Made by a program: the position numbers and the translations under genes. Below the pieces are notes generated by a model, which did not search any database, was not told where the DNA came from, and was given only the letters and a program-made list of their open reading frames with translations. 64,000 nucleotides of DNA from Pyrinomonadaceae bacterium (GTDB lineage: Bacteria > Acidobacteriota > Blastocatellia > Pyrinomonadales > Pyrinomonadaceae): contig JAVEDE010000125.1 of NCBI GenBank assembly GCA_030841105.1, forward strand, positions 62,001-126,000. The letters are read 5' to 3'. Every line of letters starts with the position of its first letter. Within the stretch, counting starts at the first letter, position 1. Shown piece by piece: positions 34,757-61,493 of this stretch.

Positions 34757-34960
34757 AGGGAAAGGAAGCCGCACAGCAACACTCAACCCTTCGCTTCACT
34801 TTGCGTCTTCGCCAGAAATTAAACTCACGCTGGAGGCGCAAAGACGCAAAGGAAGACTCTAGGCAAAAAATCACGAAGCATGCTTCAGACCTTTCCCCTT
34901 TCCCCCTTTCCCCTTTTCCCCTTCTTCTTCTTTACCCTTTCCCCTCCAGTTTTGTTAATC
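34733..34960. repeat. Compound low-complexity inverted repeat
   Basis: Outer arms: purine run GGGTAAAGGGAAAGG (34752-34766) against a pyrimidine run of CCCCTTT blocks (34890-34945). Nested inside is a separate inverted repeat, CTTTGCGTCTTCGCC (34799-34813) against GGCGCAAAGACGCAAAG (34835-34851). Fills the space between P450 and the Trm112-like gene. Confidence 0.75.
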
Positions 34961-37050: not shown

Positions 37051-38058
37051 ATGGAACTCATCACACCACAACGCGCGTCGGAGTTGGCCGCAAGGATCGA
37101 AGGGCGGCGCGTCGTCGTCTGGGGCGACGTGATGCTCGACGAATTTGTCTGGGGCGATGTGACGCGCATCTCGCCGGAAGCGCCCGTGCCCGTCGTTGAC
37201 ATCCGGCGCGAGTCGGTGCGCCTCGGCGGCGCGGCCAACGTGCTGGCGAACTTGATCGCGCTCGGCGCGCGGGCTTCGGTCGTCGGCGTCGTCGGGCGCG
37301 ACCGCGCGGCCGAACGTCTCTCAGACGCGCTCGACGCAGCGGGCGCGCGCCACGCGTCCGCCGGACTCGTCACGGACGAGAGCCGCCCGACGACGACCAA
37401 GACGCGCATCATCGCGCATAATCAACTCGTCGTGCGCGCCGACCGCGAGCGGCGCACGCCCGTTGACGCGGCGACGGAAACTCGCCTCATCAACGCGCTC
37501 ACGGCCGCCTTGCCGGAGGCCGACGCCTTCGTCGTTTCCGATTACGACAAGGGCGCGGTGACGCCGCGTGTGCTCGCGGAAATTTTGCCGCGCGCCTTCG
37601 AGCGCAACATCCCCGTCCTCGTTGATCCAAAGATTCGCAACTTCGACTCATACCGCCCGGCCACCGTCGTCACGCCGAACCACCACGAAGCCCTGCGCCT
37701 CGCGAACTCCGAAGACGACACCGACGCCGGGATGGCCGACGCCGCCAGACTCTTGCGCGAACGGCTCGGCTGCGAGTCGGTGCTGATCACGCGCGGCGAG
37801 CACGGCATGATGCTCTTGGAACGCGACGCCGCGCCCGTCTATGTCGCCACGGTCGCGCGCGAGGTCTACGACGTGACGGGCGCGGGCGACACCGTCATTG
37901 CGACGCTCGCCGCTGCGCTCGCCGCGGGCGCGTCGCTCACGGAAGCCGCCGCGCTCGCCAACCACGCCGCCGGGATCGTCGTCGGCAAACTCGGCACGGC
38001 GACGGCCAGCGTCGCGGAGTTGCTCAACTCCTTCAAGCCGGAAACCGCTGCCAGTTAG
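37051..38058 (+). CDS. D-glycero-beta-D-manno-heptose-7-phosphate kinase (RfaE domain I)
   Basis: 335 aa, the size of a standalone PfkB-type HldE kinase domain. VVWGDVMLDEFVWGDVTRIS, PEAPVPV and GGAANVLANL mark the sugar site; VYDVTGAGDTVIATLA is the ATP/anion-hole motif with the catalytic Asp. It makes heptose-1,7-bisphosphate for ADP-heptose. The adenylyltransferase half of bifunctional HldE is missing and not seen in the window. Confidence 0.92.
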   Translation: MELITPQRASELAARIEGRRVVVWGDVMLDEFVWGDVTRISPEAPVPVVDIRRESVRLGGAANVLANLIALGARASVVGVVGRDRAAERLSDALDAAGARHASAGLVTDESRPTTTKTRIIAHNQLVVRADRERRTPVDAATETRLINALTAALPEADAFVVSDYDKGAVTPRVLAEILPRAFERNIPVLVDPKIRNFDSYRPATVVTPNHHEALRLANSEDDTDAGMADAARLLRERLGCESVLITRGEHGMMLLERDAAPVYVATVAREVYDVTGAGDTVIATLAAALAAGASLTEAAALANHAAGIVVGKLGTATASVAELLNSFKPETAAS

Positions 38059-38136
38059 AAGTCGGCAACCGTCATCGCCCGTTAGAAGTCGGCAAACGCC
38101 GCCTGTTAGAAGTAGGAAGCCGCCGCCTGTTAGTTT
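38054..38136. repeat. Short tandem repeat (24-27 bp, ~3.5 copies)
   Basis: GTTAGAAGTCGGCAA-type units begin within the heptose kinase stop region and repeat: copies of 27, 24 and 24 bp, then a partial GTTAG. Copies two and three share GCCGCCTGTTAGAAGT. Lies directly before dacB. Confidence 0.8.
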
Positions 38137-38150
38137 GAAAAAATGGTCCG

Positions 38151-39959
38151 ATGCTTATGCCGCTGAAAAAAAGTCTAACCCTTCGTTTCACCTCGACCTT
38201 GTTGCTGCTGGCATTCGTCGCCAACCCGTTTGCCATCGCCGCGCTCGCGCAGGATGCACAGCGCGACCGGCGGGTCGGGCAGTTACCGTCTGCGCCCGCC
38301 GTCACCGTCGCCCCCACGCCCACGCCGCAAACGGCGACGGGAGTGGCGACTGCTGCTGCTGCCGCTCCGGCGTCGCGCTCGCTCGAAGCGTTGCGCGCGG
38401 AGATCACGGAGGTCTTGCGTGAGCCGGAACTCGCGCCCGCCGTCGTCGGCGTCAAGGTCGTGTCGCTCGACACGGGGCGCGTGTTGTTCGAGGAGAACGC
38501 GTCCAAACTGCTCGTGCCCGCGTCGAACATGAAACTCTACACGGTCGCCGCCGCGCTCGACCGCCTCGGCGCGGACTTCCGTTTCATCACCTCCGTCTAC
38601 GCCTCCGAGTTGCCGGACAAGAAGGGCAAACTGCGCGGCGACCTCGTCGTCTACGGGCGCGGCGACCCGACGCTCGCCACGCGCTTCAACAATGGCGACT
38701 ACTACAAGGCGATTGACGAACTGGCGGCCCGCGTCGTCGCGGCGGGCGTCCGGCAGGTCGAGGGCAACATCGTCGGCGACGAGAGTTACTTCACGGGGCC
38801 GCCGCGCTCGCCCGGTTGGGAGTGGGACGACTTGCAGTGGTACTACGGCGCGGACGTCAGCGCGCTGACCGTCAACGACAACGCGCTCGATCTCTCCGTC
38901 AAGCCGGGCGCGCGCGCGGGCGACCCCGCCGCAGTCTCGACCGGCCCCTCGTCGCCCGTCGTCCGCGTCGTCCCGCACAACAAAGATGATTTCATGGACA
39001 CGCCGCTCTTCCTGACTTTCATCAACAACGTCACGACCGTCGCGCGGGGCACGAAGCGCGACATCAGCGTGCATCGCCCGCTCGGTCAAAATTTCGTCGT
39101 CGTGTCGGGTCAGATCGCCGAGGACGATCCGGGCTACACGGGCAGCGTCGCCGCCGCGCGCCCCGCCCTGCTGTTTACCTCGATGCTGCGCGCCGCGCTG
39201 GAAAAGCAGGGCGTCTCGATCAAAGGGCGCACGCGCATCATTGACGCGCCGATGCGCCCGAAGCAGTCCGACTCGCCCGTCGTTGCGAGCCAGCCCGTCA
39301 CGTCTGGAGCGGGACAGACCACGACGACGGAAGCGGCGAAGCCGGTCACGGCGACGGCGGGCAACTCGGTTAAAAATCCTTACCCGGTCGAGATCGCGCG
39401 GCGCGAGTCGCCGCCCCTGTCGGAGATCGCGGCGCAGACTTTGAAGCCGAGCCAGAACCTCTACACCGAACTGATTCTGCGCACGCTCGGCAAACAATTT
39501 CCCCCGGCCGACCCGCGTCTGACGACGGCCGAGGCCGGTCTCTCCGTCGTCCGCGCTTTTCTGAACAACGCGGGCGTCACGATGGCGCACCTCTCCTTCG
39601 TTGACGGTTCGGGGTTGGCGCGGCAGAACCTCATCACGGCCGAGTCAACCGTCCAACTCCTCGTCTACATGAGCAAGCACCGGCACGCGCAAGCGTGGCG
39701 CGACGCGCAGCCCATCGCGGGCGTGGACGGCACGTTGCGCGGGCGCATGCGCAACACCGTGGCCGCCGGGAATCTGCGCGCCAAGACCGGCACGCTCAAC
39801 AACGTCTCCGGCCTCTCCGGCTACGTCACCAGCGCGGCGGGCGAACGCCTCGCCTTCTCGATCATCGTCAACCACTACCCCGACGACAACTCCCCGCGCC
39901 AAAATTACATGGACGCCATCGCCGTCCTGCTGGCCTCCTTCACGGCGCGGAGCGAGTAA
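38151..39959 (+). CDS. dacB: D-Ala-D-Ala carboxypeptidase/endopeptidase (PBP4, S13 family)
   Basis: 602 aa (ATG at 38157 also possible). Signal peptide ends near AALAQ. S13 active-site motifs: SxxK in VPASNMKLYTVAAALD, SxN-equivalent SGLARQN, and KTG in RAKTGTLNNVSG; FVDGSG is present. The periplasmic enzyme trims or opens peptidoglycan crosslinks. A Thr/Ala/Pro-rich insert (SQPVTSGAGQTTTTEAAKPV) of ~45 residues interrupts the domain. The stop is followed 10 bp later by a long tandem repeat. Confidence 0.93.
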   Translation: MLMPLKKSLTLRFTSTLLLLAFVANPFAIAALAQDAQRDRRVGQLPSAPAVTVAPTPTPQTATGVATAAAAAPASRSLEALRAEITEVLREPELAPAVVGVKVVSLDTGRVLFEENASKLLVPASNMKLYTVAAALDRLGADFRFITSVYASELPDKKGKLRGDLVVYGRGDPTLATRFNNGDYYKAIDELAARVVAAGVRQVEGNIVGDESYFTGPPRSPGWEWDDLQWYYGADVSALTVNDNALDLSVKPGARAGDPAAVSTGPSSPVVRVVPHNKDDFMDTPLFLTFINNVTTVARGTKRDISVHRPLGQNFVVVSGQIAEDDPGYTGSVAAARPALLFTSMLRAALEKQGVSIKGRTRIIDAPMRPKQSDSPVVASQPVTSGAGQTTTTEAAKPVTATAGNSVKNPYPVEIARRESPPLSEIAAQTLKPSQNLYTELILRTLGKQFPPADPRLTTAEAGLSVVRAFLNNAGVTMAHLSFVDGSGLARQNLITAESTVQLLVYMSKHRHAQAWRDAQPIAGVDGTLRGRMRNTVAAGNLRAKTGTLNNVSGLSGYVTSAAGERLAFSIIVNHYPDDNSPRQNYMDAIAVLLASFTARSE

Positions 39960-39968
39960 GAGGACGCG

Positions 39969-40304
39969 AAATGACGATTTCACGGTGTTAATTCATACTT
40001 TCACACTGCAAATTGATACTTTCACCATGCAGATCCATAGTTTCGCAGTGTAAATTGATACTTTCGCGCTGCAAATTTGAACTTTCGCGGTGCAGATTCA
40101 TAGTTTCACTCTGCAAATTCATACTTTCGCGGTGTAAATTTGCAGTTTCACTCTGCGGATTTGAACTTTCGCTTTGTAAATTGATACTTTCGCCCTGCGG
40201 ATTTGAACTTTCACACTGCAAAAAGACCCTTCCGCGCTGTGGATTCGTAATTTCGCGCTGCAAGTTCACCCTTTCGCCTTGCTGAAAGACACTCTCGCCC
40301 TCGC
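39969..40304. repeat. 16 tandem 21-bp units (minisatellite) between dacB and dapF
   Basis: Sixteen consecutive 21-bp units without a single insertion or deletion. Each has a fixed core ACTTTC(G/A)C-N2-3-TG(C/T)(A/G) and a variable half around (A/G)ATTnAnA. The 21-bp period keeps frames open on both strands, giving heptapeptide patterns (LILSRCK on plus, ESINLQ on minus). No ribosome site or initiation context supports a protein, so this is listed as DNA/RNA repeat. dapF follows 26 bp later. Confidence 0.92.
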
Positions 40305-40330
40305 GTCATGAGTTTTAACCTGTGCGGCTT

Positions 40331-41224
40331 ATGAATTTCGTCAAGTTTCACGGCTACGGCAACGACTACATCGTGTGCGAGGCGGGCGAGTTGGCGCGCG
40401 TCGTGGACGGGGGCGACGTGCCGGAGTTTGTGCGGCGCGTGTGCGACCGGCATTACGGCGTGGGCGGCGACGGCGTGGCGACGCTCGAACCGGCGTCGGC
40501 GACGGGCGACTCGGCGACGGCGGGCGACTCAGCGACGGCCGATTTCGTCTTACGCATCTTCAACCCGGACGGCAGCGAGGCGGCCATGTCGGGCAACGGC
40601 TCGCGCTCGGCCGCCGCGTTCCTCTACTTTCAAGGCTTGTGGCAGAGAGACGAACTGCGTCTGGCGACGAAGGCCGGAGTCAAACTCTACCGCCTGTTGG
40701 AACAGGACGGGCGCGGCCGTTACCGCTTCGCCGCAGAGATCGGCCGCCCCGCCTTCGACAGCGCGACCATCCCCATGCTGACGGGCGCGGCGCGCGAACA
40801 GGTCTCGGACTTCCCCTTGGAACTTGAGACGGGCGAGACGGTGCGGCTGACGGCCTTGCAGATGTGCAATCCGAACGCCTGCGTCTTCGTGGACGACTTC
40901 GACGCGGCGGACTGGCGGCGCATCGGTCGCGCCATCGAATCGCACGCGCAGTTTCCCCAGCGCACCAACGTCGAGTTCGTGCGCGTCCGCGACCGCGAGA
41001 CGATAGAGGTGCGCGTCTACGAGCGCGGCGTCGGCCCGACGCTCTCTTCGGGGACGGGCGCGTGCGCCGCGGCCGTCGCCTCCTGCCTGAACGGGTTGAC
41101 GGACAGGCGCGTCCGCGTCGAGATGGAGGGTGGCCGCCTCGAAGTCGAGTGGCGCGACGACGGCGAGGTGCTGCTGACGGGCGAGGCCGAAGTGATCTAT
41201 CGCGGTGAGTGGGTGAAGGGATGA
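40331..41224 (+). CDS. DapF-like protein with both catalytic cysteines replaced by serine
   Basis: 297 aa (family ~275). Fold motifs are intact: FVKFHGYGNDYIV, GGDGVATLEP, RIFNPDGSEAA, the MCNPNACVFVDD block, RTNVEFVRV, YERGVGPTL and GTGACAAAV. The first catalytic block reads MSGNGSRS instead of MCGNGxRC (Ser87 for Cys) and the second LSSGTGACAA instead of ACGTGA (Ser240 for Cys). In DapF these cysteines are the two proton-transfer bases that interconvert LL- and meso-diaminopimelate. A repetitive insert (GDSATAGDSATA, residues 59-70) is also present. It may use another mechanism or have another role. Confidence 0.88.
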   Translation: MNFVKFHGYGNDYIVCEAGELARVVDGGDVPEFVRRVCDRHYGVGGDGVATLEPASATGDSATAGDSATADFVLRIFNPDGSEAAMSGNGSRSAAAFLYFQGLWQRDELRLATKAGVKLYRLLEQDGRGRYRFAAEIGRPAFDSATIPMLTGAAREQVSDFPLELETGETVRLTALQMCNPNACVFVDDFDAADWRRIGRAIESHAQFPQRTNVEFVRVRDRETIEVRVYERGVGPTLSSGTGACAAAVASCLNGLTDRRVRVEMEGGRLEVEWRDDGEVLLTGEAEVIYRGEWVKG

Positions 41225-54051: not shown

Positions 54052-54216
54052 AGGGTAAAGGGGAAGGGGTAAGGGGGAGGCGGGGCGGGGAAGGGAAAGG
54101 GGGAAAGGGGAAAGGGTAAGGGGAAGAAAACTGCCGCGCGCCTCGACCCGGCGGTCGGCGCGGCGACGCGTCTCGCGTCGCCGCACCTTTCCCCTTTCCC
54201 CCTTTCCCTTTACCCT
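54052..54216. repeat. Long purine tract with opposing pyrimidine tract
   Basis: A ~79-bp run of GGGGAAAGGG-type purines (54052-54130) faces a 31-bp CCTTTCCCC-type run (54186-54216), with a GC-rich 55-bp centre. Sits between divergent recX and truB and directly abuts the truB start region. Third member of the 32.0/34.8 kb family. Confidence 0.8.
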
Positions 54217-59880: not shown

Positions 59881-61296
59881 ATGGCAGACGACCGCGAAAT
59901 CAAAGACCTCGAACGCGCGCTCGAACAAATCTGGGAGATCGCCGCGCGCCTCGGCCTCGACCCGTTCCCCACGCGCTTCGAGATCGTGCCCGCCACCGTG
60001 ATGTACGAGATCGGCTCTTACGCGCTGCCCGGCCGCTACTCGCACTGGACGTTCGGCAAGGCTTACCATCGCATGAAGACCATGTACGACTTCGGCCTCT
60101 CGAAGATTTACGAAGTTGTCATCAACACCAACCCGTCCTACGGCTTCCTCCTGGAGACCAACAGCCCCATTCAAAACAAACTCGTGATGGCGCACGTCCT
60201 CGGCCACGTGGACTTCTTCAAGCACAACGCCTACTTCTCGAAGACCAACCGGCGCATGGTCGAGTCGGTCTCGTCGCACGCGGGGCGCATGAGCGAGTAC
60301 GAGTTCAAGTACGGGCGCAAGACCGTCGAAGAGTTTCTAGACGCCGTGCTCTCCATCGAGGAACACATTGACCCGAACTTTTTCATCAAGCAGGAACGCC
60401 CGCCGCAGACGGAGGAACAGCGCGCCGCCGGGCTGCCCAAAGAAGGCCGCTACGACGACCTCTGGAAGATCGGCGAACCCGTCGCGTCGCCCACGCCGCC
60501 CGCGCGCGAACTCCCGCGCGGCGAACGCCTCCCCGAAAAAGACCTCCTCTACTACATCATGCGCAACTCGCCCGCCCTCACCGACTGGCAGCGCGACGCG
60601 ATGGGCATGATCCGCGAAGAGATGGAATACTTCGTCCCGCAGATGCAGACGAAAACGCTAAACGAAGGATGGGCTAGTTACTGGCATTCGCGCATCATGC
60701 GTGAGCTTGAGTTGACGGATACGGAATCCATCGAGTTTGCCGAACTGCATGCGGGCGTCGTGTCGCCGCACAAGGGGCAGTTGAATCCGTATTATCTGGG
60801 GTACAAGATTCTCGAAGACATCGAGCGGCGTTGGGACAATCCGACGGCGGCGGAGCGCGAGCAGTTCGGGCGCAAGGGCGGCGAGGGGCGCGAGAAGATT
60901 TTCGAGGTGCGCGAACTCGACAACGACGTGTCGTTCCTGCGCAACTACCTGACCGAGGAGTTGTGCGAGGAGTTGGACTTGTTCGTGTACGAACTCGTGG
61001 AGGAAGAGGAGTGGACGGTGACGGAGAAGCGTTGGGAACGCGTGCGCGATCAACTCGTCTCGAACCTGACCAACTTCGGCTTTCCCTACATCGTCGTCGC
61101 CGACGGCGACTACAACCGCAACCGCGAACTCTACCTCAAGCACCAGTCGGAAGGCGCGGAACTCGACGCCAACTACGCGCGCAAAGTCCTCGAATACGTC
61201 TTCCGCCTCTGGGGTCGCCCTGTTCACCTCGAAACCACCGCCGACGGCGAACAGGTCGTCATGCGCTACAACGGCGAAGAACACGAAGAAGACTAG
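59881..61296 (+). CDS. SpoVR family protein
   Basis: 471 aa. SpoVR blocks are visible: [80 protein letters not shown] and [20 protein letters not shown] (His/Glu-rich, protease-like). In B. subtilis SpoVR is needed for the spore cortex; in non-spore formers it is YcgB. Third core member of the PrkA module, 50 bp after the yeaH-type gene. Confidence 0.95.
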
Positions 61297-61304
61297 CGGG
61301 AGCG

Positions 61305-61432
61305 GGTTTCAAGTTTCAGGTTTCAAGTTTCAGGACTGATGTTTGAAGTTCTTCAAGTTGAAGTTCTTCAAGTTGAAACTTGAAATTTGAAATCTACGAT
61401 CTGAACCTTGAAGCCTGCGATTTGAAACTATG
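61305..61432. repeat. TTTCAAGTTTCAGG-type low-complexity repeat
   Basis: TTTCAAGTTTCAGG occurs twice in tandem (61308-61335), then GAAGTTCTTCAAGTT twice, then the complementary GAAACTTGAAATTTGAAA (61374-61391). Together they form an imperfect inverted repeat just after the spoVR stop. Confidence 0.78.
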
Positions 61433-61493
61433 TTTTGCCCGTTTCGCCGGAACTGTTAGGATGTGCGCCGCAGGAAAGGAGGGGCGAAAGAGC

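Follow-up and report, generated by a model that had tools for sequence, protein, structure and literature searches.

The dacB-dapF interval of a soil bacterium of the Pyrinomonadaceae holds a row of contiguous 21-bp units, and this row is one of many dispersed intergenic arrays in which the spacing of the units is kept while their bases vary. Three families of such arrays, unrelated in sequence, share the period. We consider the chances about even that these are noncoding arrays of helically phased protein sites on duplex DNA. The phenomenon itself is well supported and unusual as a matter of sequence, and it is from the sequence that we infer its mechanism. An earlier note on this DNA had described the single array; the dispersed copies, the two unrelated families with the same period, and the empty site in a sister species lay beyond its view.

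The array between dacB and dapF

The window analyzed is a 64,000-nucleotide stretch (positions 62001-126000 of contig C79) from the genome of this bacterium, here called G000, whose assembly comprises 5.07 Mb in 128 contigs and is 89% complete. G001 denotes a sister species and G002 a third species of the same genus. The array lies at 39969..40304 on the plus strand of the window and consists of 16 units of 21 bp with the consensus AATTCATACTTTCRCNNTGYA, in which the two edge units are degenerate. The upstream neighbor is dacB, encoding a D-Ala-D-Ala carboxypeptidase (38151..39959, plus strand; Pfam Peptidase_S13). The downstream neighbor is dapF, encoding diaminopimelate epimerase (40331..41224, plus strand; Pfam DAP_epimerase), whose start is most likely the ATG at 40331 rather than the GTG at 40322, going by the sister species.

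Consecutive 21-mers run through the whole of 39969-40304, and the flanking genes are confirmed by Pfam, which bears out the earlier description of 16 phased units without an indel between dacB and dapF. The same note gave the units a fixed core, ACTTTC(G/A)C...TGC. A constrained core is indeed present, but it is not fully fixed, as the units at 40221 and 40284 break the TTTC and the TGC is TGY. The mean pairwise identity of the units is 0.65. Tandem Repeats Finder (TRF) calls the array at periods 21, 42, and 63, and the autocorrelation at 21, 42, and 63 bp reaches a z of 27.6 compared to a maximum of 3.0 in 2000 permutations. A chance origin of the array is thus excluded. Likewise, a two-unit pattern gave 13 matches in the window where 0.02 were expected. 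Two other repeats lie close by: a 24-bp unit repeated four times at 38035-38133, which takes in the 3' end of the gene for a PfkB-family kinase and the interval up to dacB, and a short in-frame repeat (SATGDSATAGDSATAD) within dapF at 40471-40542.

Three dispersed families with one period

The earlier note had proposed looking for the core elsewhere in the genome and in relatives. A search of the bacterium's own genome with the array, which we call class A, found it at three more loci (C15, C49, and C62), making four places with the window array, and it occupies five places in G001 (C15, C84, C165, C229, and C258). None was found in G002, and the other relatives searched yielded just one 34-bp match, in G009. 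A stricter class A pattern occurred in 2 of the 119 genomes of the family. Among 84,980 species genomes it was found only in BP_15, a metagenome-assembled genome (MAG) of the sister species, in a collection from which the window's own genome was possibly left out by design. A loose search for TTTCRC pairs was too unspecific to use. Class A had no match among plasmids or phages, and the patterns of all three classes were absent from viral contigs.

Class B was recognized as 19 units with the consensus CGCTCAGCGGCATCTTTGACG that adjoin the class A array at C49; its loci are C49, C12, C106, and C102 in G000 and C84 and C214 in G001. Class C, with the core GGACGTCC, was picked up by a tandem-repeat scan of sampled stretches and resides at C79:10990-11350, C108, and C76 in G000 and at C59 in G001. 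Searches of G002 and the other relatives turned up neither class. The consensus units of A, B, and C showed no detectable relation (p 0.36, 0.81, and 0.36), and homology among the three families was rejected on these values (p 0.36 to 0.81). Altogether, class A accounts for nine arrays in the two genomes, class B for six, and class C for four, every one of them between predicted genes. In other words, contiguous units in the 10-60 bp range recur at many loci outside genes, which is what describes a dispersed intergenic minisatellite. An autocorrelation scan of G000 outside long open reading frames (ORFs), covering about 1.25 Mb sampled as stretches, revealed strong periods of 21 bp, which are these arrays, a period of 7 or 14 bp in many short elements, and a single case of 25 bp. 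The same scan of 0.8 Mb from three relatives showed no 21-bp array.

Many arrays seem to fall between convergent genes, a placement that may only reflect tolerance there. The end of C27 (94680) and the start of C106 in G000 are contig ends near sites that carry class A arrays in the sister species, so the G000 assembly may miss some arrays. Single-domain response-regulator-like genes were observed within 1.2 kb of all three G000 class C arrays and also next to the class A/B array at C49 (L163:11454-11858, L254:10083-10478, L253:10463-10897, and L003:1539-1937; two are Pfam-confirmed). This association is post hoc, about 7% of the sampled sequence is equally close to such a gene, and the neighborhood may be due to chance or local duplication.

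Constancy of the spacing

Bacterial minisatellites are usually regarded as neutral and length-unstable. The earlier note had instead raised a possible constraint on the spacing itself, and the family-wide data agree with it. Across the 19 arrays, which have between 7 and 24 units each and 309 in total, three steps differ from 21 bp: a step of 20 in G001 C15, a step of 20 in G000 C12, and a step of 22 in G001 C214. The chaining of units tolerated shifts of up to 4 bp. When distances between strong unit matches were taken unchained, the same three off-steps, and no others, appeared inside arrays; eight more off-phase distances came from stray matches 180-330 bp off, outside arrays.

How many indels should have been present? 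An alignment of G000 and G001 over 11.7 kb of intergenic DNA outside the arrays contained 833 mismatches and 111 gap events, or 0.133 gaps per mismatch, a control that comprises those 111 events in a single species pair. Genes, approximated by long ORFs, gave 0.027 gaps per mismatch. Substitution events in the arrays number at least 396, a lower bound taken as half the minimum spanning tree over units. At the local intergenic ratio of indels to substitutions, at least 53 indels are expected (the probability of 3 or fewer is 3e-19), and at the gene ratio 11 are expected (P 0.006). The drift in length by phase-breaking indels that is the usual expectation for a neutral minisatellite was therefore not found (3 versus 53), and the arrays display the fixed spacing of sites that is expected of iteron- or parS-type arrays. 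Random indels and lost phase in related genomes, which the earlier note would have taken as signs of a neutral minisatellite, were not seen.

In orthologous arrays, 177 substitutions (13.6%) and one non-21 step separate the units of 62 closely aligned pairs. Intergenic DNA outside the arrays has 7.1% substitutions, about half that level. Some of the differences between orthologous units may stem from conversion by other arrays, a possibility that the family-wide bound is intended to absorb. Furthermore, edge units carry more mismatches than central units in the three families (6.3 versus 4.8, 7.2 versus 4.9, and 7.7 versus 6.0), and these degenerate edge units are still in phase. One period has thus been kept by three unrelated families through extensive base change, which makes a constraint on spacing separable from a constraint on sequence.

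Constraint is also uneven within the unit. Column entropies in class A range from 0.06 to 1.86 bits, and substitutions between orthologous units concentrate in the variable columns (rho 0.46, 0.69, and 0.52 for A, B, and C). A 10.5-bp component of conservation was detected in class A only (p 0.02; 0.48 in B and 0.11 in C). The class C core GGACGTCC is a palindrome, like sites for dimers, and class C units match their own reverse complement at 12.27 of 21 positions, compared to 12.41 of 21 for matches to each other.

Gain, loss, and homogenization of arrays

The site of the window array is empty in G001, where GAGTAAG joins CGGCTTATG directly and dacB and dapF adjoin. The segment missing from G001 spans 39961..40324, with boundaries drawn from the comparison of the two sequences. 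In G002, the dacB-dapF gap contains an inverted repeat of 7-bp units. Insertion of the array in G000 appears likelier than its precise loss in G001, and likelier is not proven, because no outgroup exactly resembles either state. No target-site duplication was found at this one clean empty site, which has a 1-base ambiguity; other empty sites were too diverged. The C165 site of G001 is without an array in both G000 and G002, the C62 site of G000 is without one in G001, and four array sites are common to G000 and G001. Even closely related species thus differ by gains or losses of arrays, in this case between two genes for the cell wall.

Differences in array length consist of whole units. At column 21 of class A, the long arrays of G000 mostly have A and those of G001 mostly G, which indicates concerted evolution among long arrays. 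The column is unchanged in the short array common to both species (C49/C84). A different short heptad inverted repeat occupies the gap upstream of dapF in many relatives (L048, L050, L052, L054, and L058), and judging by these heptad repeats, the spot seems to collect repeat elements.

What keeps the units in phase?

Our best explanation, the even-chance reading given at the outset, starts from the fact that 21 bp is two turns of B-DNA. With the pitch kept, each unit would be a putative site for a DNA-binding protein, and bound neighbors would pack side by side, touching along one helix face. Some 8 to 24 such sites in a row would then nucleate a cooperative nucleoprotein complex. Each family may have a protein of its own, or related proteins that differ in specificity may serve them all, and their spread and homogenization probably proceed through recombination between copies. 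Candidate roles of the complex are chromosome organization or segregation, insulation between genes, or a benefit to the repeat itself. The common two-turn pitch suggests that the spacing is read along one face of the helix; cooperative binding along one face of the DNA, proposed in the earlier note, would fit such a pitch.

Several observations argue for phased sites: three off-steps against 53 expected despite frequent substitution, one period in three unrelated consensus units, substitutions that sit in variable columns at about twice the intergenic rate, palindromic class C units, and edge units that are decayed yet phased. In addition, coding, a common RNA fold, and a common curvature all fail as explanations. 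Against phased sites stands the confinement of the 10.5-bp clustering of conservation to class A. No binding protein or accompanying cognate gene family was identified for the arrays, and how narrowly they are distributed and how quickly they come and go count against an essential role.

A neutral or selfish minisatellite is possible, though doubtful. Unequal exchange and gene conversion would spread and homogenize the units, and recombination would remove length variants, so that phase is a by-product. The presence/absence differences between species, the whole-unit length changes, the species-specific column 21, the greater degeneracy of edges than centers, and a unit order common to several G001 arrays are all consistent with such a history, and a recombination bias against length variants could yield equal phase without function. 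However, plain homogenization should affect substitutions and indels equally, yet substitutions persist (~35% between units) and indels do not. Phase is also kept in degenerate edge units and in short shared arrays without homogenization, and a by-product would have had to arrive at one period in three unrelated families. A MITE-like nonautonomous transposon with an internal minisatellite and a transposase elsewhere, as with BrickBuilt in Porphyromonas gingivalis, is improbable. Such an element would be dispersed, intergenic, and missing at orthologous sites, as the arrays are; class C loci have ~34 bp in common beside one array end, and two G001 class A arrays share an end sequence. But terminal inverted repeats did not exceed those of shuffled flanks in nearly all arrays, classes A and B had no common leader or tail when flanks were compared within and between loci, and the clean empty site (n=1) lacks a target duplication.

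That the arrays are transcribed, to act as RNA or to encode a heptapeptide-repeat protein, is highly unlikely. The window array does contain ORFs of 93 and 90 amino acids, the longer of which is GTG-initiated, spans the array at 39988..40269 on the minus strand, has no Pfam match, and was judged non-genic. One class A frame has 17 stops compared to 24.9 in column shuffles, but no array is open in that frame, and none of the nine class A arrays is open in any of the six frames, so the minus-strand heptapeptide protein suggested in the earlier note falls away. Nor do class B substitutions favor third positions of open frames. An RNA with repeated sites, also raised there, is unsupported by the fold of the window array: folding of classes A and B is no better than that of shuffles, and there was no Rfam match. 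The class C arrays at L163:11000-11335, L254:9533-9953, and L285:7710-8095, in which units occur in both orientations around the palindromic core, form very long hairpins (z -13.4, -13.6, and -11.4), a strong folding that follows from the palindromic units. Barely credible is an intrinsic curvature in which A/T tracts in helix phase bend the array. The curvature that a wedge model predicts for class A falls between the 84th and 99th percentiles of column permutations. At an equal period, class B is predicted to be unusually straight (0 to 26th percentile), and the prediction for class C is ordinary (59th to 77th).

Phased protein sites may be extended one step further. We tentatively suggest that this genus of soil bacteria may maintain several unrelated families of docking arrays, each with its own protein, whose two-turn pitch is the sole shared property under selection. 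If this is true, docking arrays would be an undescribed, satellite-like layer of bacterial chromosome organization. Should a protein be found, the arrays would represent a dispersed chromosomal element of a new kind, and they occur in a phylum where experimental genetics is scarce.

Relation to known repeats

The literature search found nothing on 21-bp intergenic arrays in Acidobacteria or on helical phasing of intergenic tandem repeats. The arrays resemble CRISPR in being phased intergenic repeats but differ in having no repeat-spacer alternation; the earlier note had set CRISPR aside, and rightly, as the 21-mers are contiguous without a spacer and the variability lies inside each unit. Plasmid iterons are contiguous direct repeats of ~20 bp that are read by a protein and that lie, together with a rep gene, at a replication origin. 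Unlike iterons, the 21-bp arrays are scattered, longer, and far more divergent, and class A is without a plasmid match. Iterons are the subject of a review (PMC4980987).

The closest published relative is BrickBuilt of P. gingivalis, a dispersed intergenic 23-nt unit found at 19 loci in 1 to about 23 contiguous units (PMC4596501). BrickBuilt has a leader and a tail with small inverted-repeat ends and a single unit family, with 0-11% mismatch and 0-6% indels within elements (PMC4596501). The likeness lies in the dispersed contiguous units, the conserved and non-conserved positions within the unit, and the narrow host range. In contrast to BrickBuilt, the present arrays have a 21-bp unit, ~35% mismatch, almost no indels, no inverted ends that were found, and three unrelated families. 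The parS of pSM19035 is a row of short contiguous 7-bp heptad sites for a centromere-binding protein (PMC9499535). Three heptads make 21 bp, but the parS unit is 7 bp, and an excess at lags 7 and 14 is slight in class A and absent from classes B and C. Iterons and heptad parS are thus analogues of a phased row of sites, not relatives.

A 7-bp repeat origin of the arrays was rejected, since lags 7 and 14 show a slight excess in class A (0.31 versus 0.26) and a deficit in B and C. Although 21 equals 3 x 7, heptads are not the building blocks of the 21-bp units. Many intergenic elements do consist of tandem 7-bp repeats (GTGACAA, AATCGTG, GTTTCAA, GGGGAAA, and others), often arranged as facing inverted blocks; they were seen in ~38 regions of the sampled 1.25 Mb of G000. 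They are rare or absent in the samples from G004 and G023 and are also present in G001 and G002. In the window, such elements lie at 61279-61488, 34890-34945, and 54052-54125.
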